IMG/VR virus record: IMGVR_UViG_3300020000_000037
Location: 1-39,550 of that record
DNA: 39,550 nucleotides
Source: a virus
Strand: one strand, 5' to 3'
Shown here in pieces: positions 6,538 to 34,734 of this stretch (the stretch's first letter is position 1; every line of letters begins with the position of its first letter). The notes beneath the pieces were generated by a model that searched no databases, was not told the DNA's origin, and saw only the letters and a list, made by a program, of their open reading frames with translations. The translations under genes were made by a program, and so were the position numbers.

Positions 6538-6564
6538 TTTTTTCCTTGCATAAACTCCTTTTAT

Positions 6565-6636
6565 CGCCCATGGCAGGTCTTGCACCAACAGCCTCCCGAT
6601 TGACAATCGGGCGTTCTACTTTTGAACTACATGGGC
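6565..6636 (-). tRNA. tRNA-Asp (anticodon GTC)
   Basis: The minus strand folds as a cloverleaf: 7-bp acceptor GCCCATG/CATGGGC, TA, D-stem GTTC/GAAC with loop AAAAGTA, anticodon stem CCCGA/TCGGG with loop TTGTCAA (anticodon GTC), a 5-nt variable loop, T-stem GTTGG/CCTGC with loop TGCAAGA, and discriminator G at 6565. No CCA is encoded. The D-loop lacks GG, and the T-loop lacks TTC and has a T-T mismatch in its stem, so the usual elbow contacts are missing. Confidence 0.82.
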
Positions 6637-6666
6637 ATTTATTTTTGTAATTCTTTAAATTTATTT

Positions 6667-6870
6667 TCAACCGTCTGATTTTGGTGGTTTAGGTAAAGGC
6701 ATCCAATATTTAGCCACTTCATTAGTTTGTCTACAGTCATCTTCAATCCATACAAAACCGTCGGAATCAATATCAAAACATCGACCCACTGTGACTTCGT
6801 TCTTACCATTTACGAAAAGCAAATCTATTCTTAATTCCGGTTTTGTGACTTTACAATTTATCCAATCCAT
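6667..6870 (-). CDS. DUF551-like small protein
   Basis: A 67-residue protein of the DUF551 type. It opens MDWINCKVTKPE (family: WI...LPE), has a central strand RIDLLFVNGKNEVTVGRCFD, and ends with KYWMPLPKPPKSDG, the WMPLPxPP signature. The family is common in phage accessory regions and has no proven function. The start at 6870 has AAGG four nt upstream and lies inside the end of the preceding gene (13-bp overlap), so the two are coupled. Confidence 0.82.
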   Translation of the reverse strand: MDWINCKVTKPELRIDLLFVNGKNEVTVGRCFDIDSDGFVWIEDDCRQTNEVAKYWMPLPKPPKSDG

Positions 6871-12700: not shown

Positions 12701-12731
12701 GTTGCTACAATATAGCAACATATGTTATAGT
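12701..12731 (+). promoter_or_regulatory. Early promoter with overlapping palindromic operator
   Basis: TTGCTA (12702-12707), 17 bp, then TTATAG (12725-12730; TATAGT at 18 bp is the alternative) forms a sigma70-like promoter. The -35 box lies inside a perfect palindrome GTTGCTA-CAATA-TAGCAAC (12701-12719). A repressor bound there would block RNA polymerase. A related 7-5-7 site overlaps the second early promoter at 17059-17077, so the Cro-like protein at 16775-16993 is the obvious candidate regulator (inference). Confidence 0.65.
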
Positions 12732-12741
12732 TTTGGGTATC

Positions 12742-12789
12742 AAAGCAAGTCTCCTTGACGACTAGTCCACCAAAACTAGCAAGTTGAGC
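12742..12789 (+). promoter_or_regulatory. 5' leader RNA element, copy 1
   Basis: Starting a few nt after the predicted start site, this element matches 17101-17147 almost base for base: AAAGCAAGT, TCCTTG, then a 28-bp identical block (12762-12789). It contains hairpin CTAGT/ACTAG with loop CCACCAAA. CTTG can pair with CAAG upstream or CAAG downstream of that hairpin, giving two exclusive folds. It occupies about +5 to +52 of the transcript. Confidence 0.6.
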
Positions 12790-12830
12790 AAAAAGCTAAG
12801 ATACGAGTAACCAAAACAAAAAAAACAAGG

Positions 12831-13031
12831 ATGAGCAAAATGAGAAATTTTACAATAGAACAAGTAAACTTAAACGGAAACTTGGTAGATTACGAGGCAT
12901 GCATAAACTTAATGGATGATGAAATAAGGGAAGAACTTCATATGCGTATTTCTCCCTGTCAAGAGCAAGATTTTATAAATGCATACACTGAGGCTCATTA
13001 CAAAAAATACCAAGAAGAATTCACAATTTAA
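12831..13031 (+). CDS. Hypothetical early protein (66 or 63 residues)
   Basis: A soluble acidic protein, sequence core MRNFTIEQVNLNGNLVDYEACI, ending EEFTI. Two in-frame starts are possible: 12831, whose ATG touches the AAGG, and 12840, with AAGG at proper 9-nt spacing; the second is favoured. The same arrangement (AAGG-ATG-six bases-ATG) recurs in the next gene. It is the first gene behind the leader RNA in the small early operon. No family recognised. Confidence 0.6.
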   Translation: MSKMRNFTIEQVNLNGNLVDYEACINLMDDEIREELHMRISPCQEQDFINAYTEAHYKKYQEEFTI

Positions 13032-13072: not shown

Positions 13073-13321
13073 ATGAATAAGATGAAAGGACTAAAATTTA
13101 AATTAAATCAAGACAAGAAAGATCAAACAAACTTCGGCTATGATCTCATAGAGATAGTAGGCCAAAAACTTCACCGATCAACAACAATTCATGACACTAA
13201 ATATTATGAATATATGTTGCAGTGTATCACAACATGGGATGGCGTAAAAGAGTTTAATGAAATTTTAGAAGGAGAACTTGTGGATGAAATCGAATTAGGT
13301 ATTTACAATTTAGCGGGATAA
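13073..13321 (+). CDS. Hypothetical early protein (82 or 79 residues)
   Basis: A soluble protein beginning (MNK)MKGLKFKLNQDKKDQ, with a middle YYEYMLQCITTWDGVKEFNEI and an acidic end VDEIELGIYNLAG. The ATG at 13082 is favoured by AAGG spacing over the ATG at 13073. It is the second gene of the operon behind the leader RNA. No domain recognised; small size, early promoter and acidity are what is seen in host-takeover proteins, but this is only context. Confidence 0.6.
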   Translation: MNKMKGLKFKLNQDKKDQTNFGYDLIEIVGQKLHRSTTIHDTKYYEYMLQCITTWDGVKEFNEILEGELVDEIELGIYNLAG

Positions 13322-13335
13322 GATAAGGAGCCTCA

Positions 13336-13524
13336 ATGACTGAAAATAAAGCCACAGAAAGAAAGAATTTTAAATCAAAATCTTATCATGATAAAGCTGT
13401 CCGAGTTAGGCTAACTAAAAAAGATCGAGAAAAGCTCGAAGCGTGCTCCATAGCTACTAGCAAAACAATGTCAGAATTTTTGAGAGATTTAGTGCATGAA
13501 GCTTTTGAAAAAAGCTTTAAGTAA
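13336..13524 (+). CDS. Ribbon-helix-helix (Arc/MetJ-like) DNA-binding protein
   Basis: A 62-residue protein with a basic N-terminus and a typical RHH core: strand VRVRLTKKDREKL, then helix A, and TMSEFLRDLVHEAFEK. A strong ribosome site (AAGGAG, 5 nt) marks the start. RHH dimers bind DNA by their paired strand; in phages they are repressors or plasmid-like regulators. It is the last gene of the early operon and is followed directly by a strong bidirectional terminator. Confidence 0.75.
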   Translation: MTENKATERKNFKSKSYHDKAVRVRLTKKDREKLEACSIATSKTMSEFLRDLVHEAFEKSFK

Positions 13525-13530
13525 CAAAAT

Positions 13531-13565
13531 GGGGATGCTGAATAATCAGCATTTCCCCTCTTTCA
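13531..13565. terminator. Bidirectional terminator between convergent operons
   Basis: GGGGATGCTGA / TCAGCATTTCCCC with loop ATAA (TT bulge) is followed by TCTTTCATTTT on the plus strand and by ATTTTGTT on the minus strand. It ends the early rightward operon and the leftward replication operon, whose last gene stops inside the stem. Confidence 0.8.
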
Positions 13566-16483: not shown

Positions 16484-16513
16484 TAACTACATTGTTACGC
16501 TTTTCGCTTAGTG

Positions 16514-16545
16514 AAGGCTGCTAACCCTAGCAGCCTTTCTTTTCT
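16514..16545 (+). terminator. Strong rightward terminator
   Basis: AAGGCTGCTA/TAGCAGCCTT with loop ACCC followed by TCTTTTCT. It acts on the plus strand only. It stands 30 nt after the predicted start of the facing promoter. Confidence 0.8.
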
Positions 16546-16700
16546 AGCCGATCTTAATTTTTTCTTAATATTTTCTCAAACAATTTTTAAAAAATTTCTT
16601 TATCATTAAGCTGAAGGAATTTGCATTCAATTTTCATAAATGATGCAAAGAAAATATCCTTAGAGTATTATGGAGATAACCTTGAAAATAGTTGAGTTTA
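16546..16700. other. AT-rich gap between two rightward terminators
   Basis: No gene of useful length is seen. An inverted repeat TTTGCAT/ATGCAAA is present (about 16619-16648). TAGCCGATCTT occurs at both borders. The terminator downstream implies a rightward transcript crossing this gap, possibly a small RNA, but no convincing promoter was found within it. Confidence 0.4.
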
Positions 16701-16730
16701 GCCGATCTTGATTGATCGGCTTTTTTCTTT
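16701..16730 (+). terminator. Rho-independent terminator, rightward
   Basis: Perfect 7-bp stem GCCGATC/GATCGGC with loop TTGATT followed by TTTTTTCTTT. The direction is opposite to the neighbouring repressor gene, so it serves a different transcript. Confidence 0.85.
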
Positions 16731-16774: not shown

Positions 16775-16993
16775 TCATCTTCGTTCATTTTTACTCCAAT
16801 CAAAATCCGGTTTCAACTCTTGTCGTGTCACTTGCCCCCCAGTGATCATCTCTATTTTAATCGCTAGCTTGCGACTTGGAAATCTAACCCCAGATGATAT
16901 ATATCGCACGGTATTAGCATGTAGGTCTAACCCCCTTGCTAGCTCAGATGCTGTCATTTTGTTGAAGTGTAAATAGTCTCTCAATTTCACCAT
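16775..16993 (-). CDS. Cro-like helix-turn-helix repressor
   Basis: A 72-residue HTH protein of the Cro/YdaS type: MVKLRDYLHFNKMTASELARGLDLHANTVRYISSG forms the HTH (helices 2-3 around TASELAR and ANTVRYI), followed by RFPSRKLAIKIEMITGGQVTRQEL, the ending typical of that family. The start has AAGGGGG upstream. It is divergent from the second early operon across 191 bp that hold operator-like half-sites (TAGCA/TTGC). It is the most likely regulator of the paired promoters at 12.7 and 17.06 kb. No CI-type repressor with a cleavage domain was seen. Confidence 0.8.
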   Translation of the reverse strand: MVKLRDYLHFNKMTASELARGLDLHANTVRYISSGVRFPSRKLAIKIEMITGGQVTRQELKPDFDWSKNERR

Positions 16994-17058: not shown

Positions 17059-17088
17059 CTTGTAGTAAAATAGCAATTGTTATATATT
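17059..17088 (+). promoter_or_regulatory. Second early promoter with related operator
   Basis: TTGTAG (17060-17065), 17 bp, TATATT (17083-17088). The site cTTGtag-TAAAA-TAGCAAt (17059-17077) has the same 7-5-7 geometry and right half-site as the perfect palindrome at 12701-12719. The gene for the Cro-like protein is divergent and adjacent. Confidence 0.6.
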
Positions 17089-17100
17089 AATCAGTATGAA

Positions 17101-17147
17101 AAAGCAAGTTCCTTGTAGCCTAGTCCACCAAAACTAGCAAGTTGAGC
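17101..17147 (+). promoter_or_regulatory. 5' leader RNA element, copy 2
   Basis: The second copy of the element at 12742-12789, beginning about 6 nt after the predicted start site. The 28-bp core (17120-17147) is identical to 12762-12789. Differences fall in loops or linkers (one base deletion and four changed bases before the core), so pairing is kept. Confidence 0.6.
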
Positions 17148-17184
17148 TACTTTTTGTTGATAAAAACCAAACAAGAGAGACAAG

Positions 17185-17373
17185 ATGAGTGATATACAAC
17201 AAATTATAGAAGCAACGGAAAGATTATGCAACACCCTTTCTGAGATGGCAAACAACGAACTAAAGTTCGGATGGGACCTAGGATTGAGGTTAGAAAACTT
17301 AAGTTATGACATGTTAAAAGCTAGCAACGAACTTAGAGAAATTAAATCTTATCTTATAGGAGGTGTAGCATGA
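17185..17373 (+). CDS. Hypothetical early protein (62 residues)
   Basis: A 62-residue helical, acidic protein (MSDIQQIIEATERLCNTLSE...), first gene after the second leader RNA. AAGAGAGACAAG precedes the ATG. Its end overlaps the next gene by 4 bp (ATGA), so translation is coupled. No family recognised. Confidence 0.6.
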   Translation: MSDIQQIIEATERLCNTLSEMANNELKFGWDLGLRLENLSYDMLKASNELREIKSYLIGGVA

Positions 17374-17576
17374 TTTATGAAGATGACAGCCATTTGATAG
17401 ATGATGAATCTATTATCAGGGAAAAAATGGACGCGTATAGGGAAAGGATTATAAATAGGCTTTCCCCTTTAGAGCGTTTAGCTATTCTTGATGACTATAA
17501 AGAGTTTAAGAAACTGTATATTGAGGAACTTTGCGAAGAAATGGCACAAAATCACTTTACGGGGATATATGAATAA
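17370..17576 (+). CDS. Hypothetical early protein (68 residues)
   Basis: A 68-residue acidic helical protein: MIYEDDSHLIDDESIIREKM, then RLSPLERLAILDDYKEFKKLY. It begins on the ATGA overlap with the preceding gene and its last codons overlap the ERF gene start (17569). No family recognised; position suggests an accessory to the recombination genes. Confidence 0.6.
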   Translation: MIYEDDSHLIDDESIIREKMDAYRERIINRLSPLERLAILDDYKEFKKLYIEELCEEMAQNHFTGIYE

Positions 17577-18195
17577 CCAATCAAATGAAATAAATGAATT
17601 AGCAATCGCCTTGGCTAAGTGCCAGGGTGAAATGGAATCAGCAAAGAAAGATTCCGACAACCCTTTTTTTAAATCTAAATACGCGGATTTAAGTTCGGTA
17701 TGGGCGACATGCAGAATACCCCTAACTAAAAATGGTTTATCCATAGCGCAAACTTTAGAGACTATAAACGATAAGCTGCATTTAAATACTTTGCTATTGC
17801 ATTCCTCAGGTCAATGGATAAAATCGACTATGCCGATTATATCAGCTAAACAGGATGCGCAAGGAATGGGTTCAGGTATCACGTATGCAAGAAGATATTG
17901 CTTAAGTGCAATAATAGGCATATCACAAGATGATGACGATGGCGAAGCTGCTGTGGACAGAAATAAAGCAAATAGAAAGGTTGCCGATATTATTCCCATT
18001 ATTGGAACAGCAAAAGTGAAACAGCTAATAGAATTGTCCGATCAATGCGATAACTCATATATGGAGAAATTATTTTCATATTTGGCATCATTGGGAATAA
18101 AAGATTTTTCCATGATCAAAGAAGACATGTTCCCAAAAATATTAAAAGGGATGATGGCAAATGCGCAAGCTAATGAAAAAGAAGTTGAAACATGA
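17569..18195 (+). CDS. ERF-family single-strand annealing protein
   Basis: A 208-residue protein of the ERF superfamily, phage recombinases that anneal complementary single strands. Diagnostic blocks: NPFFKSKYADLSSVWATCRIPLTKNGLSI (about 25-55), then QWIKSTMPI, and GMGSGITYARRYCLSAIIGI followed by an acidic DDDDGEA. The start at 17569 (MNNQSNEI) is chosen because the longer frame would lie wholly inside the previous gene. It overlaps the YqaJ gene by 4 bp. The pair is the usual exonuclease/annealase module for concatemer formation and genome circularisation. Confidence 0.92.
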   Translation: MNNQSNEINELAIALAKCQGEMESAKKDSDNPFFKSKYADLSSVWATCRIPLTKNGLSIAQTLETINDKLHLNTLLLHSSGQWIKSTMPIISAKQDAQGMGSGITYARRYCLSAIIGISQDDDDGEAAVDRNKANRKVADIIPIIGTAKVKQLIELSDQCDNSYMEKLFSYLASLGIKDFSMIKEDMFPKILKGMMANAQANEKEVET

Positions 18196-18758
18196 GAGTC
18201 ACAGATATTATCCAAGGGTCAAAAGAGTGGCATCAATTCCGGCGCACCCACATTGGGGCGTCGGATGCAAGTATAATTATGGGGTTAAATCCCTGGCGTT
18301 CTATATCTCAATTATGGGAAGAAAAAATTTTTGGATGGGAACAAGAAACGAATGATAAAATGAAAGCCGGAAATGAGATGGAGCATGAAGCCAGGAAATG
18401 TTATCAATCTTTAACGAATCTTTGCGTAAATCCATTAGTATGCGAGGACGAAATATACCCTTTTCTAAGCGCATCATTTGATGGAATAACTGAGGATCTA
18501 TCTCATGCTGTTGAGATAAAATGCGGTAAGGGAAGCCATAGAATGGCAAGCAACGGAAGAATACCAGCTTACTATATGTGTCAATTACATCATCAAATGA
18601 TGATAGCAAATCTAAAGGAGATTGATTATTTCTCTTACTCAAAAGAAGATTACTACTGGATGAATTTAAAAAGAGATGATGATTTTATTAATAAAATGAT
18701 TGCAAAAGAAATTGAGTTCTGGAATAATGTTTTAAATTCAATGCCACCGGAGAATTAA
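18192..18758 (+). CDS. YqaJ-family exonuclease (lambda-Exo-like)
   Basis: A 188-residue PD-(D/E)xK exonuclease. Motifs: start SKEWHQFRRTHIGASDASIIMGLNPW (the YqaJ signature GASD), a helical region MEHEARKCY, then SASFDGI and AVEIKCGKG, giving the D...E-x-K catalytic set, and YYMCQLHHQMMI. It would resect double-strand ends 5'-3' and hand single strands to the ERF protein. ATGA overlap with the ERF gene supports coupled translation. Confidence 0.92.
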   Translation: MRVTDIIQGSKEWHQFRRTHIGASDASIIMGLNPWRSISQLWEEKIFGWEQETNDKMKAGNEMEHEARKCYQSLTNLCVNPLVCEDEIYPFLSASFDGITEDLSHAVEIKCGKGSHRMASNGRIPAYYMCQLHHQMMIANLKEIDYFSYSKEDYYWMNLKRDDDFINKMIAKEIEFWNNVLNSMPPEN

Positions 18759-18759
18759 A

Positions 18760-18924
18760 ATTAACGAAAGTAAACCTTGGACAAATCACGTCGAATTTAT
18801 AATTTTATTGGTTACATTACTAGTCGTATTTTATCTTTTATATGGTAAAATTGAAAGGAAATCAGAAAGAACAGATAAATTATATGAAATGTTTATCGAT
18901 TTGATAAAGGAAAATAGAAAATGA
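18760..18924 (+). CDS. Single-pass membrane protein with apparent AUU start
   Basis: A 54-codon frame with one membrane helix (VEFIILLVTLLVVFYLLYG) and a charged tail ending RTDKLYEMFIDLIKENRK. The tail matches the C-terminus of the protein encoded at 27607-27825 (KRTDKLYEMFIDLLK). The only start at SD distance is ATT at 18760, seven nt after GGAG; there is no ATG in the frame before it. It abuts the exonuclease gene and overlaps the next gene (ATGA 18921-18924). Either AUU initiation, as in infC, or a mutated start is implied. Confidence 0.6.
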   Translation: MNESKPWTNHVEFIILLVTLLVVFYLLYGKIERKSERTDKLYEMFIDLIKENRK

Positions 18925-19130
18925 ATGAGACATGGATACAGGTTATAGCTATAATAGCCTCAAATTTAATCATAATGCTTACTTTCTTTGGAGTTACAAT
19001 TTCACTTCATAACGGGATGAGAGAAGAAATAAGAGGAATGCAACAGGAAAGTAAGGATTTTCACGGAAGGCTTTGCGAAATCGAAGAAAAATATAGAAAT
19101 ACTAGGCCAAAAATAATTGATAGGGATTGA
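18921..19130 (+). CDS. Single-pass membrane protein, DFHGRLC family (copy 1)
   Basis: A 69-residue protein with an N-terminal membrane helix (WIQVIAIIASNLIIMLTFFG) and a cytoplasmic or periplasmic coiled coil ending KDFHGRLCEIEEKYRN. It is a paralogue of the protein at 27401-27610; the DNA of the shared tail is nearly identical. Overlaps the preceding gene by four bases. Holin-like or membrane-anchored sensing roles are possible, but unproven. Confidence 0.65.
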   Translation: MNETWIQVIAIIASNLIIMLTFFGVTISLHNGMREEIRGMQQESKDFHGRLCEIEEKYRNTRPKIIDRD

Positions 19131-23759: not shown

Positions 23760-24391
23760 GTTATGTGTCCCCAACTTATGTTATTTTTTATTCTAAGTAT
23801 CGTTGTTTTTGAAACAGGAAATTCCTTGCTAATTGAATAACATGAATGTCCATCTTTTATCAATTTTTTTATTTCTCTAACTTGATCCTCATTAAGAATA
23901 GCTGAACCATTCTCGATACCTTTTTTAATCGGAGGACTTACCCAATTTGCTCTACCTTTAGCGATTTTATCATCATTATTTTGTTTATGTGTTCCCAACC
24001 ATAAATGATCGGGATTAGTACATATAGGATTGTCGCAAGAATGGCAAACATGCATCCTATTGGGAATAGATCCTTTATGTATTATCCATGACGCCTTATG
24101 TCCTCTATCCGGACCTATGGTTTTTCTGCAAGACATGACAGGATATCCGCCTTTAGCAATAGGGCCATTCCATCCCCAACATCCCTCATATCTAATAACA
24201 TGTTTTTCAAAACTTTTCTTAAGTCTTTCAAACCTCTCTTCATCCGTCAATTCAGCGATTCTGATTTGCCCCCCTGGCCTAAATCCTGTATGTCCTCTAC
24301 AGGCATGACTACAAAATCTTGGTATCGGCCTTCCTTTCATTTGATAAAAAGGAAATTTTTTACCACACTTAACACAAATTAAATCTTCCAT
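23753..24391 (-). CDS. HNH homing endonuclease with C-terminal helix-turn-helix
   Basis: A 212-residue freestanding HNH_3-type endonuclease. It has an N-terminal zinc knuckle (CVKCGKK...CSHAC), a central HNH core HVCHSCDNPICTNPDHLWLGT, and a C-terminal HTH (SCYSISKEFPVSKTTILRIK). The ATG at 24391 is preceded by AGGAGG at five nt; the frame is open to 24415, without its own site. It sits between two tail fibre genes and probably moves by cutting unoccupied sites. A related C-terminal remnant is at 31410-31493. Confidence 0.93.
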   Translation of the reverse strand: MEDLICVKCGKKFPFYQMKGRPIPRFCSHACRGHTGFRPGGQIRIAELTDEERFERLKKSFEKHVIRYEGCWGWNGPIAKGGYPVMSCRKTIGPDRGHKASWIIHKGSIPNRMHVCHSCDNPICTNPDHLWLGTHKQNNDDKIAKGRANWVSPPIKKGIENGSAILNEDQVREIKKLIKDGHSCYSISKEFPVSKTTILRIKNNISWGHITC

Positions 24392-24447
24392 ATAACCCTC
24401 CTTGGTTAGATACATTCTAACCTAAAAGGGTCATTTAGGTACAGCGC

Positions 24448-26386
24448 TTATAAAGGACGTATGATGAAATATCCCACGCTACTCACGTCGGCAGTTTGGA
24501 CCGAAGCAGGCGTCCCCAGAATTAAACTATTGATAGTAAAGGACGCGCCATTGCTAATCGTATAACTCAACTCGCCAAGAGTAACCGCGCCATTGACCGC
24601 AATTCTAGAAAGGAAAATTAAATCTCCAGTCGCAATATTTGTATTAGCTACTGTAACAGTTCCCAAAACAAGCACAGCAGATCCAGCAAAATCTGTTGCC
24701 GCGCCCGCCTTAATTTGAAGTCCTTTAGCAGCAGTAGCAATCTTAAGATTACCTCCCGTAACAGCAACAGCTCCAGTACCTGCATTTATGACAACAGTGG
24801 ACGCCGAACTTGTCGAGCCTATATTTACGGTTTGCGTAGCAGTTCCGCCAGTTCCAATATTGATAGTATCCGCGGAAGTAGTTACGCCGATATTTACAGT
24901 CTTAATACCGGAGTTAGAGGCGATGTTAAGTATCTGGGTTCCAGTACCTCCCGCGATCGTCATAGTCCCTGTATTGGCGCCCGTTCCCCCGAAATTAATC
25001 GTTCCTCCAGTTGTACTAGGTGCAAAAGTATAGGTTGCAGCAGCATCGCCATCTAAAGAGAAGTTTCCAGTTCCTACCCGCATAGTAATTCCGCTGGTTG
25101 AAGAAACACTTCCTAGAGTTAAAACATTACTTACCGCACCCGTTCCAATATTGATGGCCTTAGCAGATCCAGCGCCCGTTGCTAAATTAAGAGTGGTCGC
25201 CCCCGTGCCGGCTCCGATTGCCACAATATTAGTACCGCTAGAACTTCCCAGTGTGATTGTTCCAGTTTGTGAAGTACCTCCAATCAATATAGTATTCGTT
25301 CCGCTAGACAATATCTGAATGTTTCCGGCCCCAGTGCTATTCCCTATATTAACTACATGCGCCGCTCCCGTTCCGGTGGCTATATTAACGGTTCCAAGTT
25401 GTGTAGCAGTATTGCTTGATAGGACATTAAGCGTATTCGTTCCGCCAGTCGCTGCCCCCGCCAGAATATTTACAGTATTAGTACCGCCAGATGGAGCGCC
25501 GGACAATAGATTAAATGTGTTAGTGCCTGATGCAATTGTACCGTTTAGAACGTTGAAGTTGCTTGTAGCGCCCGCAATTGCACCGCCAAAAAACGCTACT
25601 GATTGAGTTCCTGTTGTATTAGCTCCACCAAGAACAGCAATAGATTGAGTTCCAGCAGATGCAATACCGCTCATAATGGTTAATGTCTGACTAGCTCCTG
25701 GTGTTGCGCCTGTCATTAAATTAATTGCATCCGCTCCCGTTGCTGACGCCCCAGTAAATACATTTAATGTATTAGTAGACGCATTGACTCCGGTAGCTAT
25801 ATTAATTGTCGCGCCTGCGGTTGTATTATTTGAAATGGACACCGTTCCAGCCCCAGCCCCTGCGCCAATTGCTACGATATTAGTACCACTTGAGCTTCCC
25901 AAAGTAATCGTGCCAGTTTCAGCGGTGCCCCCAATTGTGATAGCCCCAGTAGTTAAGCTGGCTCCGATCAACATATTAGTTGAAGTTGTTCCGTCTATTG
26001 TTAGACCTGAACTTCCGGCTAAAATTGTCGTTGCTGAAGTCGAACTCACCGATCCAATTGTGACTGTGTTAATTGAAGCGCCCGATCCTAATGTGATGGT
26101 GTTAGTTCCTGCCCCGTCAGCTAGGTGTAGGGTATTTCCCCCTGTTCCAGTCGAGATATTTGTAGTATTAGCGCCATTTCCAACGCCTAGGTTAACGGTA
26201 TTCGTTCCGGAAGAATTTCCAAAAGACATGGCACCAGTCTGAGCTGTGCCCCCAATCGCTATTGTTCCGCTGGTATTTGCCGCGAACATTGTGACTATAG
26301 TAGTTGCAGCTGAGGTGAATGTGAAATTACCGGTCCCTGCTTTCAAGGTCAAAGCGGCCGCGCCTGTGGCTGAACCGCCTGGGTTG
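24448..26386 (-). CDS. Tail fibre shaft (second reading frame)
   Basis: At least 634 residues of Gly/Thr/Asn repeats of type GTNTVNIG, SGTNIVAIGAG, forming a long beta fibre, then a short C-terminal region FLSRIAVNGAVTLGELSYTI. It lies one frame behind the protein at 26349-27059: the open frame continues upstream of the TTG at 26352 as GGSATGAAALTLKAG. The two together read as one about 870-residue fibre. Either a -1 shift near 26385, termination-reinitiation on TTGA (26352-26349), or an indel is needed. The left end given marks where the new frame begins to make sense. Confidence 0.75.
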
Positions 26387-27059
26387 AGTCTCCGATATGG
26401 ATAGTTCTAGCTGCTGCACCGGTGCCAATATTTATAGTGTCCGTTGTTGCATCTGCTCCAATAGATATAGCTGTTCCGCCTGACGCCCATGTACCACCAG
26501 CAGTACCCGTTGCTGTGGTAAATCCTAGAGTTGTTGCGGTGACTGCTGCGGGTGTTGTGCTTCCCAATGCAAATGGAACCGCAAATACAGATGCCAAACT
26601 AGCTGGATTAATTGCATAGTTAGTGGTTAATGCTCCTGCCTGAGCCTGCGCATTCGTAGCTAGAAAGACATATCCTTGTTGAGTGGTAGTAGCAGGGACG
26701 CCCGCGCCTACCACTACAGATGCAATTACAGTTGCCACATCATTAGAGGAAGGAACATATGTAGAGTTAGGAGCATTCCCATTCTGTAATTGCGATAGAG
26801 TGCTAAGAAAAACAGCTCCCGCATTTGTAGTGGAGGCAATTTCTCCTGAGGGAAGGGACCATGTAGCGGCTAGAGTCGCGCTAGCTGATGTAATATTTAA
26901 TAAAGTATAGGATGCCACTCCTAAATAAATCCAAACTTTACCGATAGGAAAATTAGTGTCGCTGGATGTTGGGGCTCTTGTTTGATATGTTGGGATTTCT
27001 ACGCCTTCGGGTCGGCTTCCAAAACTCTGAGTATATAACATTGCACCTGTAGGTATCAT
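26349..27059 (-). CDS. Tail fibre, N-terminal part (reading frame 1)
   Basis: A 236-residue N-terminal fibre part. MIPTGAMLYTQSFGSRPEG, then SSDTNFPIGKVWIYLGVASYTLL matches the head-binding motif shared with the spike at 19758-21500. Alanine/threonine repeats follow, then DTINIGTGAAARTIHIGDST, typical fibre repeats, after which the frame diverges to QAVQPQARPL and stops at TGA 26351. Strong ribosome site (CGGAGG). The frame change lies in the middle of a repeat, so the terminated form is probably not the main product unless the shift is regulated. Confidence 0.8.
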   Translation of the reverse strand: MIPTGAMLYTQSFGSRPEGVEIPTYQTRAPTSSDTNFPIGKVWIYLGVASYTLLNITSASATLAATWSLPSGEIASTTNAGAVFLSTLSQLQNGNAPNSTYVPSSNDVATVIASVVVGAGVPATTTQQGYVFLATNAQAQAGALTTNYAINPASLASVFAVPFALGSTTPAAVTATTLGFTTATGTAGGTWASGGTAISIGADATTDTINIGTGAAARTIHIGDSTQAVQPQARPL

Positions 27060-27201
27060 AATTCCTCCGTGGATTTTATTTTAAATTCCACTTTATTAAA
27101 TATGTTAAATTAAAAATATAAATAATATGCAAGTTTCTAATCATAACATCCTAAGGACCTTTTTTAAAAAAAATATGTCACTTGTTATTATATAGATTAT
27201 A

Positions 27202-27218
27202 TGGTACATTTGGTACAT
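27202..27218 (+). promoter_or_regulatory. Tandem TGGTACAT operator-like repeats
   Basis: TGGTACAT occurs at 27202-27209 and 27211-27218, the second overlapping the ATG of the RHH-like gene. TTGTTA (27183-27188) and AT-rich DNA upstream may provide a promoter. RHH proteins bind tandem repeats, so self-repression is plausible. Confidence 0.45.
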
Positions 27219-27399
27219 GAGCAAGAAACAGCATAAATTTTTGATTGATACAGAGGTTCTTAAGAAATATAAAATGCTTTGTGTAGAGCTAAACCTCGTC
27301 ATGAGCAGTCAGACAGAGCAATTGATTGTTCAATTTGTGAAAGTTCAGAAAGAAAATGCTAAGATAAAAAGAGAGCTAAAAAGGTTAGAGAGGATTTAA
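27217..27399 (+). CDS. RHH-like small regulator
   Basis: A 60-residue protein: MSKKQHKFLIDTEVLKKYKM, LNLVMSSQTEQLIVQFVKVQ and a basic, coiled-coil end KENAKIKRELKRLERI. A short strand (KFLID) and two helices fit the ribbon-helix-helix fold loosely; the C-terminal coiled coil is atypical. It is the first gene of the rightward membrane-protein cassette and is divergent from the fibre genes. It probably represses its own promoter (inference from the tandem repeats). Confidence 0.55.
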   Translation: MSKKQHKFLIDTEVLKKYKMLCVELNLVMSSQTEQLIVQFVKVQKENAKIKRELKRLERI

Positions 27400-27400
27400 A

Positions 27401-27610
27401 ATGGATTGGATACAATTTGCAACATTTATTATAGCCAATATGATTTTTACTTTATCATTATGGTTTTGGGCAAGAACTGAATCAAATGCAGATAGAAGGG
27501 AAGCTGCAAATGATCGAAGGGATATATTGCAATTAATAAGAGGAATACAAGAAGAAATTAAAGATTTCCACGGAAGGCTTTGCGCGATCGAAGAAAGGAA
27601 TAGAAAATGA
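27401..27610 (+). CDS. Single-pass membrane protein, DFHGRLC family (copy 2)
   Basis: A 69-residue protein with an N-terminal membrane helix (WIQFATFIIANMIFTLSLWFW) and a charged helical tail ending KDFHGRLCAIEERNRK, a paralogue of the protein at 18921-19130. It overlaps the next gene by 4 bp. The size and topology fit a phage holin or a membrane-linked accessory; no such activity is shown. Confidence 0.65.
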   Translation: MDWIQFATFIIANMIFTLSLWFWARTESNADRREAANDRRDILQLIRGIQEEIKDFHGRLCAIEERNRK

Positions 27611-27825
27611 CTGAATTAATAGATTTTTTAAAGGGATTCAACATTCAAAATTTAATGGGCATGGCTGTTATCTGCTGGTATTTTACTCATGACCTTAAGT
27701 CTCAAATTGAAAAATTGGACAATGACTTAAATAATAAGATTGATCAGCAATCTAAAAGAACAGACAAATTATATGAAATGTTTATAGACCTATTAAAGAG
27801 CAAAAGCCAAGAGAGTTTAAAATGA
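27607..27825 (+). CDS. Single-pass membrane protein, TDKLYEMF family
   Basis: A 72-residue protein with a central membrane helix (LMGMAVICWYFTHDL) and a coiled coil ending KRTDKLYEMFIDLLKSKSQ. Its tail matches the protein at 18760-18924, where the partner order is reversed. It overlaps both neighbours by 4 bp (ATGA). Holin-like by topology and position in the cassette. Confidence 0.65.
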   Translation: MTELIDFLKGFNIQNLMGMAVICWYFTHDLKSQIEKLDNDLNNKIDQQSKRTDKLYEMFIDLLKSKSQESLK

Positions 27826-28037
27826 GTCCATTCATGGAAGTAGTTATTGCTTGCGTTGCAATCATAGGCGGATTTTGCTCTTTTATCTATTTGGCGTTTT
27901 CATCAATGGAAAAACGCTTAGAATCTAAAATGGATTCTGTTTCTACTAAGGTGTCTAGAATAGCAGATGAATTGAGAGAGGAAAGAAGGAGCAAAGACGA
28001 TCTTTATAAATTTGTTAACTATAAAAAAGGATTATAA
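27822..28037 (+). CDS. Single-pass membrane coiled-coil protein
   Basis: A 71-residue protein with an N-terminal membrane helix (VVIACVAIIGGFCSFIYLAF) and a coiled coil (MEKRLESKMDSVSTKVSRIADEL), ending YKFVNYKKGL. Begins on an ATGA overlap. Same topology as the two preceding genes, so the three may work as a membrane complex. Confidence 0.6.
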   Translation: MSPFMEVVIACVAIIGGFCSFIYLAFSSMEKRLESKMDSVSTKVSRIADELREERRSKDDLYKFVNYKKGL

Positions 28038-28040
28038 AAA

Positions 28041-28145
28041 ATGTACATTTCTGGAACTTTTATACTTTCTTGCTTGGTGATTTATTCTATTCTAATGTTC
28101 ATCACTAGAGAAAAAAAATATGATGGACACCCTGATACTTGGTAA
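28041..28145 (+). CDS. Membrane micro-protein (34 residues)
   Basis: A 34-residue frame with a membrane helix (MYISGTFILSCLVIYSILMF) and a short charged tail ending HPDTW. AAGG lies 10 nt upstream. It stops one base before the convergent ejection-protein gene. It is the end of the cassette; small size leaves doubt. Confidence 0.45.
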   Translation: MYISGTFILSCLVIYSILMFITREKKYDGHPDTW

Positions 28146-29627
28146 TCACTCTTCGATTTTAGCTAATTCATCATCAAGCAATTTAGCATTTTTAGAAACT
28201 TGTGATGCGTTACCCGCAGATGCACCTTTAAGAATATTTCCATAATATTTCGCCATTGTCTTACTCTTAAGAATTTGGTGAAATACTTTATATGTTTCAT
28301 ATCCGGCATAAACTAGTGGAGCGCTTATAGCTCCTGTTTTTCCTATTGCTCCTGCTACTCCGGCCTTATGAATTCCATAACCGCCCAATCCCAATAATGT
28401 GCTTGTGTAAGGAGATTTAAATGATTGCTTAATGCTTTTCAAAATGAATTTTCCCATTTTTTCTGAACTTTCTACTGCTGCCCACGCTTCATTAGCAGAT
28501 TTATTTAATTTTCTAAATTCTGGATTATGTTTGGCTCCATATTCGTCAAGAGCTCCTATCACTTCTTTTTTCACTAAATCTAAATTAACAATCATTTTCT
28601 TTTTTATTTTTGCAGGAACTGTAATATCAAAACCACCAAGAGAATCTTTGATCTCATTAATACTTTTCCTAAAATCAATTAATTCTTTAACTTCAATTTG
28701 TCCATTTTTCATTTTTTTTTGGATTTCATTAACTTTAATCAATGATTTTTCTGTAGAAGGTCTTGTGCCTCCACTTTCAAGAGTTTTTTCTAGATTTGAC
28801 AAGGACTTTTGGAATGAATGAGAAGTTAATTCTGCTCCTTCAGGAATCAATTTTTCACTTTCATTAAATAAATTTCCAGCGAATTTTCTAGCTCCGCCTT
28901 TCCTGTGAGACATTAAATCTAACACAACCATAGTTCCAATCTTGGCAGCATCTCCTAATTTTTCTGTACCTGTATATTTAATGCCTTCTTTTGCCAAGTT
29001 GGCAACAACTGGAATCCCAATATTTCTCATCATGTTATATTTTCCGGAACCTGGAATCATAAATGAAGCAATATCTGAAAGTACTTCATCGCTTTTTTCC
29101 TCTGCTTCATTTTTCGCTTTTGTATATCCCTTTGTTGATTTTTCACTTAATTCTTTTAAACTTTTAGAAGTTGGAAGATTTGTTTCTGGATTAGCTCCAA
29201 ATAGATATTTTCCAAATGAATAAAGATCTCCTGGAAGTCCTAAAATTGTTTCTCCGATTCTTGAAGTACCCCTAGCAATATTTCTCTCGATCTCTCTTTC
29301 TAAATCATTTTCTTCTTCAAAAGGAAACTCTTTTTCTTCTTCCTGTAGAGACTCTATCTCTTGAGGTTCATTTTGAATTCCCTCTTTTTGTTCTATAGTC
29401 TCAAAATTTTCTAATTCATCTTCTTCTTTTTGATCAAATTCTTCAGGGAAACTAGTAAATTCAGTTTCCCCCCCCTTCCCTTTTCTAGAATAAAGAGGGC
29501 GTAATTGCTCTGAATTGTGATAGTCTGGCTCTAATTGATCTTTTGTGAAATAAGTAAAATCTTCATCATTGCTTCCTTCCCCTTCTAACTGATCCTTTGT
29601 GAAAAAAGTGAAATCTAAATCATTCAT
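28146..29627 (-). CDS. Candidate ejection protein (internal virion protein)
   Basis: A 493-residue protein. A duplicated N-terminal motif DFTFFTKDQLE / DFTYFTKDQLE (residues 5-33) precedes a long acidic stretch. Then ARGTSRIGETILGLPGDLYSF (about 118-140), a region of helices, and glycine-rich hydrophobic segments (STLLGLGGYGIHKAGVAGAIG) that could enter membranes. This composition, and the place after the tail genes, fits the large ejection proteins of P22-like phages (gp16). It starts on the ATGA overlap with the preceding gene. Confidence 0.65.
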   Translation of the reverse strand: MNDLDFTFFTKDQLEGEGSNDEDFTYFTKDQLEPDYHNSEQLRPLYSRKGKGGETEFTSFPEEFDQKEEDELENFETIEQKEGIQNEPQEIESLQEEEKEFPFEEENDLEREIERNIARGTSRIGETILGLPGDLYSFGKYLFGANPETNLPTSKSLKELSEKSTKGYTKAKNEAEEKSDEVLSDIASFMIPGSGKYNMMRNIGIPVVANLAKEGIKYTGTEKLGDAAKIGTMVVLDLMSHRKGGARKFAGNLFNESEKLIPEGAELTSHSFQKSLSNLEKTLESGGTRPSTEKSLIKVNEIQKKMKNGQIEVKELIDFRKSINEIKDSLGGFDITVPAKIKKKMIVNLDLVKKEVIGALDEYGAKHNPEFRKLNKSANEAWAAVESSEKMGKFILKSIKQSFKSPYTSTLLGLGGYGIHKAGVAGAIGKTGAISAPLVYAGYETYKVFHQILKSKTMAKYYGNILKGASAGNASQVSKNAKLLDDELAKIEE

Positions 29628-30799
29628 AAAGGTTTAGCGCCTCTTTTTTTAGCTTTTGAAACATCTGATTTAGGAACAAAAATATTTTCCCCATTCAATT
29701 CCATCAATACCAAGCCTTTTTGACTTGCTAATTTACGATCTGAATCTATTGATTTTGTGTAGGATTTTTTTGAATTTGATTCAATTTTTATAAAATCTTT
29801 TTTCAATTCATCTACGATATTTTTACTTCTTTTATCAGCTTCTCTTTCTGCTCTATCCCAATCAACATTTCTAACACCACCTTGCTCATCAACATAATTA
29901 ATTAAAGCTTGCTCGCGTGCCATATTTATAGAATTCAGCGTCCTCATTTGTTCAATGATCTCTTTTCTTCCTTCTTCCGTATTTGCTAATGTAGGAAGCC
30001 TTTTCATAAATTGAGTTAAGTCAAAATTTGTGACCCTAGATCCATAACTATCTTTAGCTTTAGTCGTAAAATCATTTATAGTTTTAATATATCTTTGAGC
30101 TTCAGGGGAGGCAAGCGCTGGAATAATCAATTCTCCGCTTTGAGGATTTAAGTTTAAGCGTGTTAATCCTGAAATTTGAGGTGATAATTCTTCAAGAATC
30201 CCTAATGCTGTTTGTTCATCTTCAAGAGATTTTACTTTTGTCTGTCTTTCTTGATAAAGAGGGAGATTCTTAGCATAACGTTCTTTTCCTAATCCCACTT
30301 CTTCTTTAGGTGTATATCCTGGGGTTTTAGATGTGTCTTGTGTTTTTTTTAAAAGGTTGGAAACATCAAGACCTCTTTGTTTTGAATCGACAAATTGCTT
30401 AATGAGTTCTGTTTTACCGCCTTCAGGAGCTGATTTATAAAGATCGGCTGCTTCTTGACCAAATTGATCTTTAATAACATTATATCTCTCAAGTTCCTGA
30501 AATTTTTCTTCAGGAGTTAGATTTTTTCTATCTTGTAAAAATTTTCCTTTTATTTCTTCCTGCTCCAATCCTTGCTTGCCTTTTAAAATTTCCTTTTGAA
30601 AATCTTTAGGCAATCCCTTGGTATTTACCTTATATTCTTCTTCCATAAAACGAGCTAGATTTTCATCTTCTTTTTTTTTAAATTCTTCTATTTTTTTTTC
30701 TCTTGCATGCTCTCCAATTAAATTGGATATTCCTGAAAATGCCCGAGTGAACTTTTCGGTTGTCGTAGGTTTTCGATTAGATTCAATTATTTGTACCAT
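29624..30799 (-). CDS. Candidate ejection protein (internal, coiled coil)
   Basis: A 391-residue protein, nearly all helical, charged and with long coiled coils (EHAREKKIEEFKKKEDENLARFMEEEYK). The start at 30799 (MVQIIESNRK) follows GGGGG; the longer frame overlaps the preceding gene. The end has a beta segment MELNGENIFVPKSDV. It resembles the middle ejection protein of P22-like phages (gp20) in style and place, but sequence similarity is not evident. Confidence 0.6.
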   Translation of the reverse strand: MVQIIESNRKPTTTEKFTRAFSGISNLIGEHAREKKIEEFKKKEDENLARFMEEEYKVNTKGLPKDFQKEILKGKQGLEQEEIKGKFLQDRKNLTPEEKFQELERYNVIKDQFGQEAADLYKSAPEGGKTELIKQFVDSKQRGLDVSNLLKKTQDTSKTPGYTPKEEVGLGKERYAKNLPLYQERQTKVKSLEDEQTALGILEELSPQISGLTRLNLNPQSGELIIPALASPEAQRYIKTINDFTTKAKDSYGSRVTNFDLTQFMKRLPTLANTEEGRKEIIEQMRTLNSINMAREQALINYVDEQGGVRNVDWDRAEREADKRSKNIVDELKKDFIKIESNSKKSYTKSIDSDRKLASQKGLVLMELNGENIFVPKSDVSKAKKRGAKPL

Positions 30800-30800
30800 T

Positions 30801-31391
30801 TTAACCCCCAAACATCTTTAAGGCATTTAAGAATCCTTCCGTATTCCTAGTATCTCCTTCATATAAATCTCCTCCCACAGGCGAAATAAGCCCTAGCATG
30901 CTTTCCCATAACTTTGGTTTATGCTGTTTTTTTTCTAGGAATCTTTCATATGGTCTCTTATCCAAAAGCTGGCTACTAAATCCCTGTAAATCCGATATAG
31001 CTTGTCTTTGAAGGTTTTGTCTTTGAGCTTGCAGATCTTGAGCGAAGTTTGAATATGCCGAAGTTGCTTTGTTCTGAAATCCGCTGCTTCTTCGAGTCCC
31101 TAAAGATCCTTGGCCACCTCCAGCGCTAAATCTTGATGCCATATTTCCAAGGCCTTGTTGGAATTGTCGGAATGCTGGAGCTTCCATTTCGTTGAACAAG
31201 CCTTCATCGCCTTGTGATAACCTAGAAAGATAACTTTCCGGTCCCACGCCTCCCATTGATTGCTCAAAAAGCTGCAATTGCTCTGGTGTATATTGTTGAA
31301 GTGCGCCCGCTTTATATCCTTTAGGTGTTTTATCTCCTGAAAAGTTAGGTGTCTTATTTCTTGGTTGAGATGCGGTTGCCATTGGGTTCAT
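30801..31391 (-). CDS. Candidate ejection protein (small, glutamine-rich)
   Basis: A 196-residue protein with a disordered N-terminus, glycine-rich GGGQGSLGTRRSSGF (about 95-110) and a glutamine-rich coiled coil (FAQDLQAQRQNLQRQAISDLQ). Such shapes are typical of P22 gp7-like and related DNA-transfer proteins. Strong ribosome site (AAGGAG). It precedes the two larger internal proteins and follows the tail hub, as in P22-like gene order. Assignment by context. Confidence 0.6.
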   Translation of the reverse strand: MNPMATASQPRNKTPNFSGDKTPKGYKAGALQQYTPEQLQLFEQSMGGVGPESYLSRLSQGDEGLFNEMEAPAFRQFQQGLGNMASRFSAGGGQGSLGTRRSSGFQNKATSAYSNFAQDLQAQRQNLQRQAISDLQGFSSQLLDKRPYERFLEKKQHKPKLWESMLGLISPVGGDLYEGDTRNTEGFLNALKMFGG

Positions 31392-31409
31392 ATAGACTCC
31401 TTTTCTTAA

Positions 31410-31493
31410 TTAAACGTGATTACATGCTCTTCTAAGCACTATATTACCTATATGATGCCTATCTACTCCGTATTTTTTTGCTAAAAGCACTTG
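31410..31493 (-). pseudogene. Remnant of an HNH homing endonuclease C-terminus
   Basis: Between two tail genes the minus strand has a frame after TAA that reads QVLLAKKYGVDRHHIGNIVL and ends in NHV before TAA. It resembles the C-terminal HTH of the endonuclease at 23753-24391 (ISKEFPVSKTTILRIK...GHI). There is no start codon or HNH core, so it looks like a scar of a lost endonuclease gene. Confidence 0.45.
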
Positions 31494-31503
31494 TTATTCT
31501 TGT

Positions 31504-31977
31504 CTATGGGTTACCTAGGTACTCCAGGCAAATTAGCCCTTTAGTACAAGCAGGCGGGCTTCCCGCGCCTTTAGTTATCAATATACTTGTTGCGTTCACT
31601 TTAACATTGATTTGATTGGTTGCATTAACTACATCTACATATGGCAAAGCCTGCCAATTTGTGCCATCAAAAAATGTACCCCATATCCTTACAAAATTTG
31701 TTAGAGAAAGAAAGTCAAGTCCATGTGCAATGGTTAAATTTGTATCGGACCACTGGTAAACCTGTCTTACTCCCTGCTGCTTTTTAGCTTGGGTAATGTA
31801 CCAATTTTCTCCGGTTACGATAGAACGATTTGTTGGGAATGTACCAATTACTCGAGAATTTACATTATGAGCAATGTCCACATAGCTTCTGTTAACTTCA
31901 ACACATAATTGGTGAAGATCCTCAGGAAAGGTTCTTGTAGTTCTTAAAAAACCTGATTTGCTTAAAACATCATTCAT
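31504..31977 (-). CDS. Conserved tail-associated protein (157 residues)
   Basis: A 157-residue protein: TRTFPEDLHQLCVEVNRSYVDIAHNVNSRVIG near the N-terminus, TGENWYITQAKKQQGVRQVYQW and IAHGLDF in the middle. The strand-rich end is LICLEYLGNP. The pattern recurs in tail modules of related phages, but the function is not defined. It overlaps none of its neighbours and lies between the tail hub and the ejection proteins. Confidence 0.65.
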   Translation of the reverse strand: MNDVLSKSGFLRTTRTFPEDLHQLCVEVNRSYVDIAHNVNSRVIGTFPTNRSIVTGENWYITQAKKQQGVRQVYQWSDTNLTIAHGLDFLSLTNFVRIWGTFFDGTNWQALPYVDVVNATNQINVKVNATSILITKGAGSPPACTKGLICLEYLGNP

Positions 31978-31983
31978 ATAAAC

Positions 31984-34734
31984 CTAGCATAGATCTTGAC
32001 TTGGGCTAACGTCTAAAATAAATCCGTGGAGTTCTATTTCAGCAGTTTGATTAGAAAACGTAACATCTCTCATTTGCGCATCTGAAAGAGTGAATCCCAA
32101 TTGTACAGTATCGCCGATTAATGAAGTATTCATCCTATGCCATATTTGCGCTGATGGGGAAGTACCAGCAGCATTCGGGGCATTTCCTGGAAAGTTTAGC
32201 ATTTGAAGATTGGTATTTGCAGGAGTCAAACCTAAATTCGTAGTTTCAGGGCATGTATAGACAATTTGGCTAAAAATTAATGAGTCGTTTAATGATAGAG
32301 TTGTTGGAACAATAGGGCCCTGATTATATGGCGTAGCAGCATCTTGGCTCAAGTAAATCTGTACAGTAATTTGACCATTACTTGTCTTAGATAAGAGATA
32401 CTTCTGAGGGCCAATTCTTGTTTTTTTAGCTAAAGCCCAACCTATAGGGAATTGTTTAGTCTGAATAAAAGGAACATACAACCTTGTGATTTGCCCCCCT
32501 CCCTTATAATCTAAAACAGGAATATTTACAGATGGCTTTAACATAAAATCATTGGCTGTTACATTGAATATAGAAAATATGGAATTATTCAATGCGGCGG
32601 ATACCGTTCCGATGGCTCCAGTTATTATAATATAATCTTGGTTGTTTAAGCAGTGATTAGGAGATGTCACAGTATTTGCCAATATGTTTTGAATAGACAA
32701 GGAAGGTTCTTCGTCAGTATCCTTATCGTTTCTAAACATCACATAGCCTTGCTGATTTCCAGCAATTACCTGTATCTGCCCGTCTGCATTATCTCCGGAA
32801 TTCCAAGGAGAGTTCCAATCAGCCCATGACTCTATATTCAAAGTAGCCCAGGTATCTCCGCCTGTTGGTGTAATCGTTCCATATGTCGTATAGTTTTCAA
32901 GAAAAATAGCAAAAGACTGATCGCGATAATTGTAAAATAGAGTTTCATTAGGAAATATATTTCCATCTTCTTCATAATTTGGATAGGTGAAATAGCACCA
33001 TTCGTTAATGAAATCTCTTATAGCTGTCACTCGTTCATTTCCGTTATTATTTGTATTTATCTGGAATGCTTGATCTGGAATATCTAAATCGAATCTGCTA
33101 GCTCCTACTTGATTGGATATGATAAATCCTCTATTGCCCCTAGACAAAACCCCTTGGTCCATATCAACGACTGAAAATGTGCTAGATGTTCCAAGCTCAG
33201 AGTTTACTTTGAAAAACTCAAATGGATTTTCGTCATTGCCTGTAGCAACTAATCTGGCCTGTAACTTTGTGAACCCTGTTATAATGACGTCTTCATTAAA
33301 TGAAGATGACACTATTCGATCGGTTAGACCAAGTGAGAGAAATCCTCCAAATCCAAATTGGTCTTCGAACATTGCACAAGGTGATGCGCCAAGATTTGTC
33401 GGAGTCAATAAAGCAACGAATTCATTCAATATACTAGTAGGTGTATCAATCGTTGCTGTAGGCTTATTAGTATATGAAGCCGTATAATAAGGAGTCCCAT
33501 TCTGAGTAAATACTATCGTGTCAGGTAAATAAATCGGATTCCCTGAAGACGTCTGAACTATAGGACCAAAAAAAACAAGACGGTCTTTATAAGGAAGAAT
33601 TAATTTCGCCCCTGCAAGATAATAGATTGCAGGCTTTAAACCAGCTATTGAATAAGGCAATTGGTTTAAAGGAGGCATATAGTTCACCCAGCCAAAACCC
33701 GTTTGAAAAGTAGGCGGCACAGTCAAACTCGTAGGAGGCCCATCATAAAATCTAACACAATCTAAAGTTGCATTGGAATTATTTGTTAGATATTGAAGCA
33801 TTCCTACTGTATAAGCAGAATTTTGTATAGTGGCATTTGGAAATACAACAGTGAATGTATTTCCTGCCACTGTTACATAACCCGTCTGAAAGTTAAGCCC
33901 TGATCCTCCTACAAATTCATTTGCAAAAACGAAATCTCCTACAACTAATGGATTTCCAACTATGGTAAATTGCATGGTTGTTGGATTTACAAAAGTTGCT
34001 GCTGTTAATGTAGGAACTGTAGAGGCACTAGCAAATTGCATGCCAACATTATTAATTGAAAATGGTACTGTAACACCATTTGTAACCCAAAGCGCATTCT
34101 CATAATTTGTTGACCAAAATTGCTGATAATTTTGACCATTCCAACGTAAAGGCGTCCATGTAGTTTTAGCAACATATGTTCCAGATGAAGAAGGGTTTTT
34201 ATAATAACTAACATCTGTAATTAGATAGGGTGAAACGGTACTTATGTTATAAGCATTTGTTGTGTCAAAGGCGATCTCTCCAGTGTCAGAAATAGGAGAT
34301 AATTGAAGTTCTTCCAATCCCATTACAGGCAATTGAGGAATAAAAACAATTGGGGTATTTATTTTAGACCCTGTAATCGTCAAAACACCTGTAGTCAAAT
34401 TCAAAGTACCGCTTCCAGTTCCATTCGTGATCAGCGTAACTACTGGGGTCATCCCTCCTGGATCGGTAAATATATCCGTTCCAATTTGAAACACCGAAAT
34501 CCCTTCAGGGATAGGATGAACGAAAATTGTTACAATACGATTCCCGCTTCCATCTGTCGTTGCAATCCATCTTTGCAATTGGCCTAATAAATCAGTTCCT
34601 CTTTTTCTTTTGATTTTAAGCCTATGTTGATAGGCATTAATGAGCACAGGGAAACTGTCATTGTCAATATTGAATGGCTCTATCCCTGTCCTAAGACCTC
34701 CGGATATTGGGCCTACAATTAATTTATCTGCCAT
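31984..34734 (-). CDS. Tail hub / tail accessory protein, P22 gp10-like by context
   Basis: A 916-residue beta-rich protein, starting MADKLIVGPISGGLRTGIEPF with a good ribosome site; a longer frame to 34809 overlaps the next gene. It has many short strands, aromatic repeats and two H/N-x-L...GD/QD blocks, for example NHCLNNQDYIIITG...NNSIFSIFNVTANDFML, similar to E1-FCCH-like phage modules. Length and place after the tail adaptor fit the gp10-type hub that joins adaptor and needle. The assignment rests on size, order and style, not on recognised catalytic residues. Confidence 0.65.
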   Translation of the reverse strand: MADKLIVGPISGGLRTGIEPFNIDNDSFPVLINAYQHRLKIKRKRGTDLLGQLQRWIATTDGSGNRIVTIFVHPIPEGISVFQIGTDIFTDPGGMTPVVTLITNGTGSGTLNLTTGVLTITGSKINTPIVFIPQLPVMGLEELQLSPISDTGEIAFDTTNAYNISTVSPYLITDVSYYKNPSSSGTYVAKTTWTPLRWNGQNYQQFWSTNYENALWVTNGVTVPFSINNVGMQFASASTVPTLTAATFVNPTTMQFTIVGNPLVVGDFVFANEFVGGSGLNFQTGYVTVAGNTFTVVFPNATIQNSAYTVGMLQYLTNNSNATLDCVRFYDGPPTSLTVPPTFQTGFGWVNYMPPLNQLPYSIAGLKPAIYYLAGAKLILPYKDRLVFFGPIVQTSSGNPIYLPDTIVFTQNGTPYYTASYTNKPTATIDTPTSILNEFVALLTPTNLGASPCAMFEDQFGFGGFLSLGLTDRIVSSSFNEDVIITGFTKLQARLVATGNDENPFEFFKVNSELGTSSTFSVVDMDQGVLSRGNRGFIISNQVGASRFDLDIPDQAFQINTNNNGNERVTAIRDFINEWCYFTYPNYEEDGNIFPNETLFYNYRDQSFAIFLENYTTYGTITPTGGDTWATLNIESWADWNSPWNSGDNADGQIQVIAGNQQGYVMFRNDKDTDEEPSLSIQNILANTVTSPNHCLNNQDYIIITGAIGTVSAALNNSIFSIFNVTANDFMLKPSVNIPVLDYKGGGQITRLYVPFIQTKQFPIGWALAKKTRIGPQKYLLSKTSNGQITVQIYLSQDAATPYNQGPIVPTTLSLNDSLIFSQIVYTCPETTNLGLTPANTNLQMLNFPGNAPNAAGTSPSAQIWHRMNTSLIGDTVQLGFTLSDAQMRDVTFSNQTAEIELHGFILDVSPSQDLC

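Follow-up and report, generated by a model that had tools for sequence, protein, structure and literature searches.

The window, that is, the whole stretch of 39,550 nucleotides analyzed here (IMG/VR record IMGVR_UViG_3300020000_000037), represents a phage genome of about 39 kb that encodes a P22-like portal. Its plus strand harbors two copies of a structured leader RNA behind predicted promoters. A 28-nt core, CTAGTCCACCAAAACTAGCAAGTTGAGC, is found at 12762–12789 and again at 17120–17147 (+) with zero mismatches between the copies, as had been noticed in an earlier annotation made by a model from the letters alone (hereafter the sequence-only reading). Zero occurrences of such a repeat are expected in the window, and 100 shuffles gave none with 3 mismatches allowed. 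Both copies also contain the fixed hairpin (loop CCACCAAA) and the CTTG segment with CAAG on either side that this reading had described. Its element of 47–48 bases was correctly placed behind the promoters but drawn too short: counted from the predicted transcript starts, the full element spans about 12738–12804 in copy 1 and 17095–17155 in copy 2 (both +), since its 5′ end forms pairs with nucleotides 3′ of the core. Two covariance models built in the present analysis recovered both copies, R1 matching 12736–12810 (E = 6e-16; R2, 69.5 bits) and 17095–17164 (E = 4e-14; R2, 57.2 bits), where the E-values are rough owing to a shortened calibration and noise reaches about 23 bits.

The predicted fold is a single bulged hairpin of about 65–70 nt, in which helix P1 runs from the transcript start and is followed by P2, P3, a bulge and P4; the core corresponds to the P4 hairpin plus the 3′ strands of P3 and P2. 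In copy 1 (+), the predicted structure comprises P1a (12739–12741/12800–12802, extendable to 12737/12804), P1b (12744–12746/12795–12797), P2 (12749, 12751–12753/12786–12789), P3 (12754–12757/12780–12783), the bulge ACGA (12758–12761) and P4 (12762–12766/12775–12779) with its loop (12767–12774). In the predicted fold of copy 2 (+), P1 is formed by AAAAAG (17099–17104) and CUUUUU (17150–17155). Across the family the bulge between P3 and P4 measures 4 nt and usually reads RUGA; the bulge and its neighboring pairs are near-constant, and P4 and its loop vary, the loop in length as well as in sequence. A likeness of the RUGA bulge to kink-turns or hammerheads was dropped on inspection, as the unpaired nucleotides that such motifs need are missing from the opposite strand.

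The covariance search over phage genomes that the sequence-only reading had proposed was carried out and led to 42 distinct members (alignment A7), all of them in uncultivated phages. RNAalifold, given the first 19 sequences, arrived unaided at P2–P3–P4. Over the 42 members, 92.4% of the cells of a 19-pair structure were paired (75.9% after shuffling), changes on both sides occurred in 16 of the 19 pairs with 120 such cells against a shuffle mean of 29, and the covariation score was 0.439 compared with 0.138 for shuffled alignments and 0.061 for the best slid control. Alignments A3 and A7 had been made by fitting to the model, which favors the structure; the plain MAFFT alignment A2 still gave a score of 0.291 versus 0.137. 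Independently of any alignment, the true 5′ and 3′ flanks that form P1 paired with –7.24 kcal/mol on average, compared with –6.10 ± 0.28 kcal/mol for permuted flanks (n = 32, p = 0.0002). Judged by this comparison of sequences, the element functions as RNA because both sides of so many pairs have changed together.

Start sites were computed throughout from promoter predictions. Copy 1 follows a predicted sigma70-type promoter at 12702–12731 (+; –35 TTGCTA, 18-nt spacer, –10 TATAGT), and copy 2 follows another at 17060–17088 (+; TTGTAG-17-TATATT). A promoter of this type fits upstream of all 33 members tested, with a spacer of 17–18 nt in 30 of them, and in each of the 33 the element begins at the predicted +1. 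This start lies 6–7 nt past the –10 hexamer in all 33, and nearly all of these RNAs start with (Y)AU[C/A]. The first paired nucleotide was the predicted +1 or +2 in 21 of 32 members, and in about one third of the members the predicted fold leaves 3 or more nucleotides free at the 5′ end. From the end of the element to the first start codon the median distance is 30 nt, and this linker contains 51% A, compared with 38% ahead of other genes. Covariation and the constant +1 start thus bear out the earlier notion of a 5′-terminal structured RNA, and we regard the element as almost certainly a conserved functional cis-RNA.

Members were collected by two routes. Degenerate DNA patterns were run over viral contigs, incomplete ones included; these patterns force conservation at their fixed letters, so that conservation counts are inflated there. 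Relatives were also fetched by their portal protein without use of the motif, and some members obtained in this way carry letters that the search patterns would exclude. These portal-fetched members show compensated stems as well (P3 CCAG/CUGG in L258, P4 GGUUUC/GAAACC in L259), and L259 has ACAA in place of the usual bulge. L003, which came from Erf relatives (52% identity), likewise has a copy at each of the two locations, its stems altered in sequence but compensated. Four genomes of the main clade (the window, G001, G012 and G014) carry both copies on a single strand at a distance of 4 to 6 kb; a third match in G001 (R2, 23.3 bits) lies within a coding gene and was taken as noise. G024 (L141), an unrelated phage with other virion genes, bears two divergent copies, one on the recombination side and one on the replication side. 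Among 16 aligned carriers, portal identity to the window was 23–27% in four and 45% in one; because the portals of carriers diverge so far, the element is spread over several phage groups. The genes downstream differ among operons and among phages, and the element therefore serves operons rather than one gene. The only early gene family present in all 18 of 18 carriers is Erf, which also occurs in relatives devoid of the element. As the comparison of these sequences shows, the element travels with its promoter rather than with a particular gene, on one or two operons per phage.

Different leaders were seen in some relatives. In L228 (minus strand, about reverse complement (rc) 18608–18690) and in L240/L264, which are the same contig (minus strand of L264, about rc 6592–6676), the element is absent and another 5′-terminal leader of the form (A)AUC...GUACGYGAUUAACGCC-hairpin-GGYGGUUGCUAAA...GAUA takes its place ahead of the Erf operon. 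This alternative leader had no R2 match, and a viral scan gave no more members. In L221, another relative without the element, the predicted transcript of the Erf operon opens with a simple hairpin (UCAAGAC/GUCUUGA).

We infer from gene content that both copy-bearing operons of the window are early. Operon 1, behind copy 1, adjoins the small terminase gene and consists of three small open reading frames (ORFs; 12831–13031, 13073–13321 and 13336–13524, +), of which the last shows a weak repressor-family match and the other two are unassigned; a terminator-like hairpin (13531–13556) is found 3′ of the last ORF. Operon 2, behind copy 2 (17185–18758, +), encodes a 62-aa ORF (17185), a 68-aa ORF (17370), an Erf-like annealing protein (17488–18195) and a YqaJ/RecE-type exonuclease (18192–18758). 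Between the two copies, the Cro and replication genes run in the opposite direction, and the Cro/YdaS-like repressor gene (16775–16993, –) heads the replication operon. The claim that both early operons carry the leader thus holds for the two plus-strand operons and not for the divergent Cro/replication operon, which has no copy. Antisense within the latter, two strong plus-strand terminator-like hairpins (16513–16538 and 16700–16721) are placed as if to stop operon 1 transcripts, and the relative L093 has similar ones.

As the sequence-only reading had supposed, no described family could be assigned. No Rfam 15 family matched at the element, even at E-values up to 5, and published literature, mostly open-access, described no such family. 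Neither megablast and blastn searches of phage records nor a search of plasmids returned a cultured-phage or plasmid match, and 26 pattern matches in GTDB genomes were all judged to be chance after model scoring; these searches relied on patterns or blastn and could miss remote members. In 369 gammaproteobacterial genomes a single weak match (22.9 bits) without a promoter was likewise judged to be chance. An exact-core scan of viral contigs gave nothing, and a one-sided pattern gave a chance match.

Among known systems, HK022 put is one of the closest parallels. Put is a phage RNA that frees RNA polymerase from terminators without protein; it binds the zinc domain of the polymerase β′ subunit and suppresses termination with no protein partner. 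Like the element, which also sits on inferred early operons behind promoters, put is a folded segment of about 70 nt in the nascent transcripts of early phage operons, with two copies per genome, one of them adjoining its promoter, and with no obvious phage partner protein (PMC9378689). The putL RNA starts directly beside its promoter, with pairing that sets in at A3, and put has been aligned from only ten known sequences (PMC9378689). The two differ in that put folds into two stem-loops (PMC9378689) and the element into one long bulged hairpin, that the put repeat CCAYTTA..TGGCTTTTGG has no sequence similarity to the element, and that putR is found about 270 nt into its transcript whereas all members of the present family are located at +1. 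With lambda-type nut sites (boxA/boxB) the element shares one copy per early operon and, in G024, the divergent arrangement, but it is much larger and differently folded. No boxA with a small GNRA-like boxB was seen in the element by eye, no dedicated test having been run; a boxA (GCUCUUUA)-like GCUCYCUG, also judged by eye, sits inside the covarying helices P2/P3. An N-like arginine-rich small protein was absent from the window and from 14 of 17 other carriers, although a very divergent N could be missed, and the candidates in the remaining three carriers belong to no common family. Like the ompA and papA leaders, the element has its stem-loop at the very 5′ terminus, ahead of an A-rich stretch that is open to ribosomes; the conserved internal loops are its own. 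To our knowledge, stabilizing stem-loops of the ompA/papA type do not constitute one conserved sequence-plus-structure family.

By analogy, we tentatively favor a put-like action, which we consider possible though short of an even chance, and which comes narrowly ahead of 5′-end protection and then of a protein-binding site. The element would be the cis-acting 5′ end of early phage transcripts; once about 70 nt had been made, the transcription machinery, and probably RNA polymerase directly, would bind the folded nascent RNA. Over the length of the early operon, the polymerase would then resist pausing or termination of the Rho-dependent or polar kind, as with HK022 put. This proposal is supported by the layout on two operons, divergent in G024 as in nutL/nutR and putL/putR, by the conserved internal loops, by the promoter-adjoining start of putL (PMC9378689) and by the missing common N-like protein, which is expected if the RNA acts without a phage partner. 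Several results weigh against it. Downstream of the element there was no excess of intrinsic terminators (24 sense versus 38 antisense at 28 operon starts), whereas the same scan, run as a control, detected four following HK022 putL, of which two lie in the first 300 nt or so. The Cro/replication operon of the main clade lacks the element, and of the 32 near-complete close relatives fetched by portal, no more than 8 contain a member. Neither by sequence nor by model is the element related to HK022 put, R1 and R2 both giving no match in HK022 24000–33000, and the +1 position would suit a 5′-end function equally well.

Such a function could be that of a cap, with P1 burying the first nucleotides of the mRNA and blocking decay by pyrophosphohydrolase and RNase E, and with the A-rich linker serving as an open ribosome landing site. 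The invariable +1 start, the pairing of the first or second nucleotide in most members and the short A-rich distance to the start codon all speak for this explanation, and 5′-terminal stem-loops stabilize bacterial mRNAs according to works cited in PMC3997798. We nevertheless hold it to be somewhat improbable, given the third of members with 3 or more unpaired 5′ nucleotides, the conserved bulge and internal loops that a cap leaves unexplained (their conservation being partly inflated by the search patterns) and the late and replication operons of the main clade, which have no element. A host or phage protein recognizing the RUGA bulge and its flanking pairs, in order to control antitermination, decay or translation of early mRNAs, would account for just these near-constant positions next to a variable P4 and loop; a constant bulge beside a variable loop is typical of RNA–protein sites. 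The carriers, however, share no small arginine-rich candidate, Erf as their sole common early family persists in element-free relatives, and L259 deviates in the bulge itself, so that we regard a protein site as unlikely.

Of the three functions suggested by the sequence-only reading, antitermination and a stability cap are thus retained, while a riboregulatory switch is not. Although both window copies contain CAAG–CTTG–CAAG and could form the two mutually exclusive folds that had been proposed, 19 of 19 members keep CTTG paired to the CAAG that lies downstream of it, compensatory changes included, whereas the upstream CAAG can pair in only 4 of 19 and is broken by an A·C mismatch in the other 15. 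We therefore give the switch hardly any weight. A DNA operator or a chance repeat with no RNA function is just as improbable: the element does adjoin promoters, where repressors bind, but the compensatory changes in 16 of 19 pairs and the complementarity of P1 refute the alternative of a DNA operator only.

The window has further features outside the two operons. A group I intron (Rfam match 709–951, –) seemingly splits the major capsid gene and is accompanied by an HNH/homing-endonuclease ORF (898–1866, –), the exon pieces being located at 1892–2200 and 1–700/38829–39470. The contig ends (1–647 and 38904–39550) repeat each other over 647 bases with 96.4% identity, which suggests that the genome is permuted or circular and that strains vary where the ends overlap. 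Two 72-nt stretches are duplicated with 78–85% identity between 18838–19099 (operon 2) and 27535–27798 (a distant plus-strand gene group), and a tRNA-Asp gene (anticodon gtc) was found at 6564–6637 (–).

With its strong covariation, 42 members and start at +1, the leader family stands as a second candidate beside the unrelated put. It may represent a second class of RNAs, not related to put, that act autonomously against termination or pausing, a rather doubtful prospect in our estimate: a single hairpin starting at +1 that would change RNA polymerase directly, be exchanged among phages as a promoter–leader cassette and be replaced in some relatives by the other leader type (L228, L264). As the element is small, assays with purified polymerase would be straightforward. 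Should it instead turn out to protect the 5′ end, early phage transcripts would have an mRNA cap that is both structured and conserved, which would also be of use as a tool.
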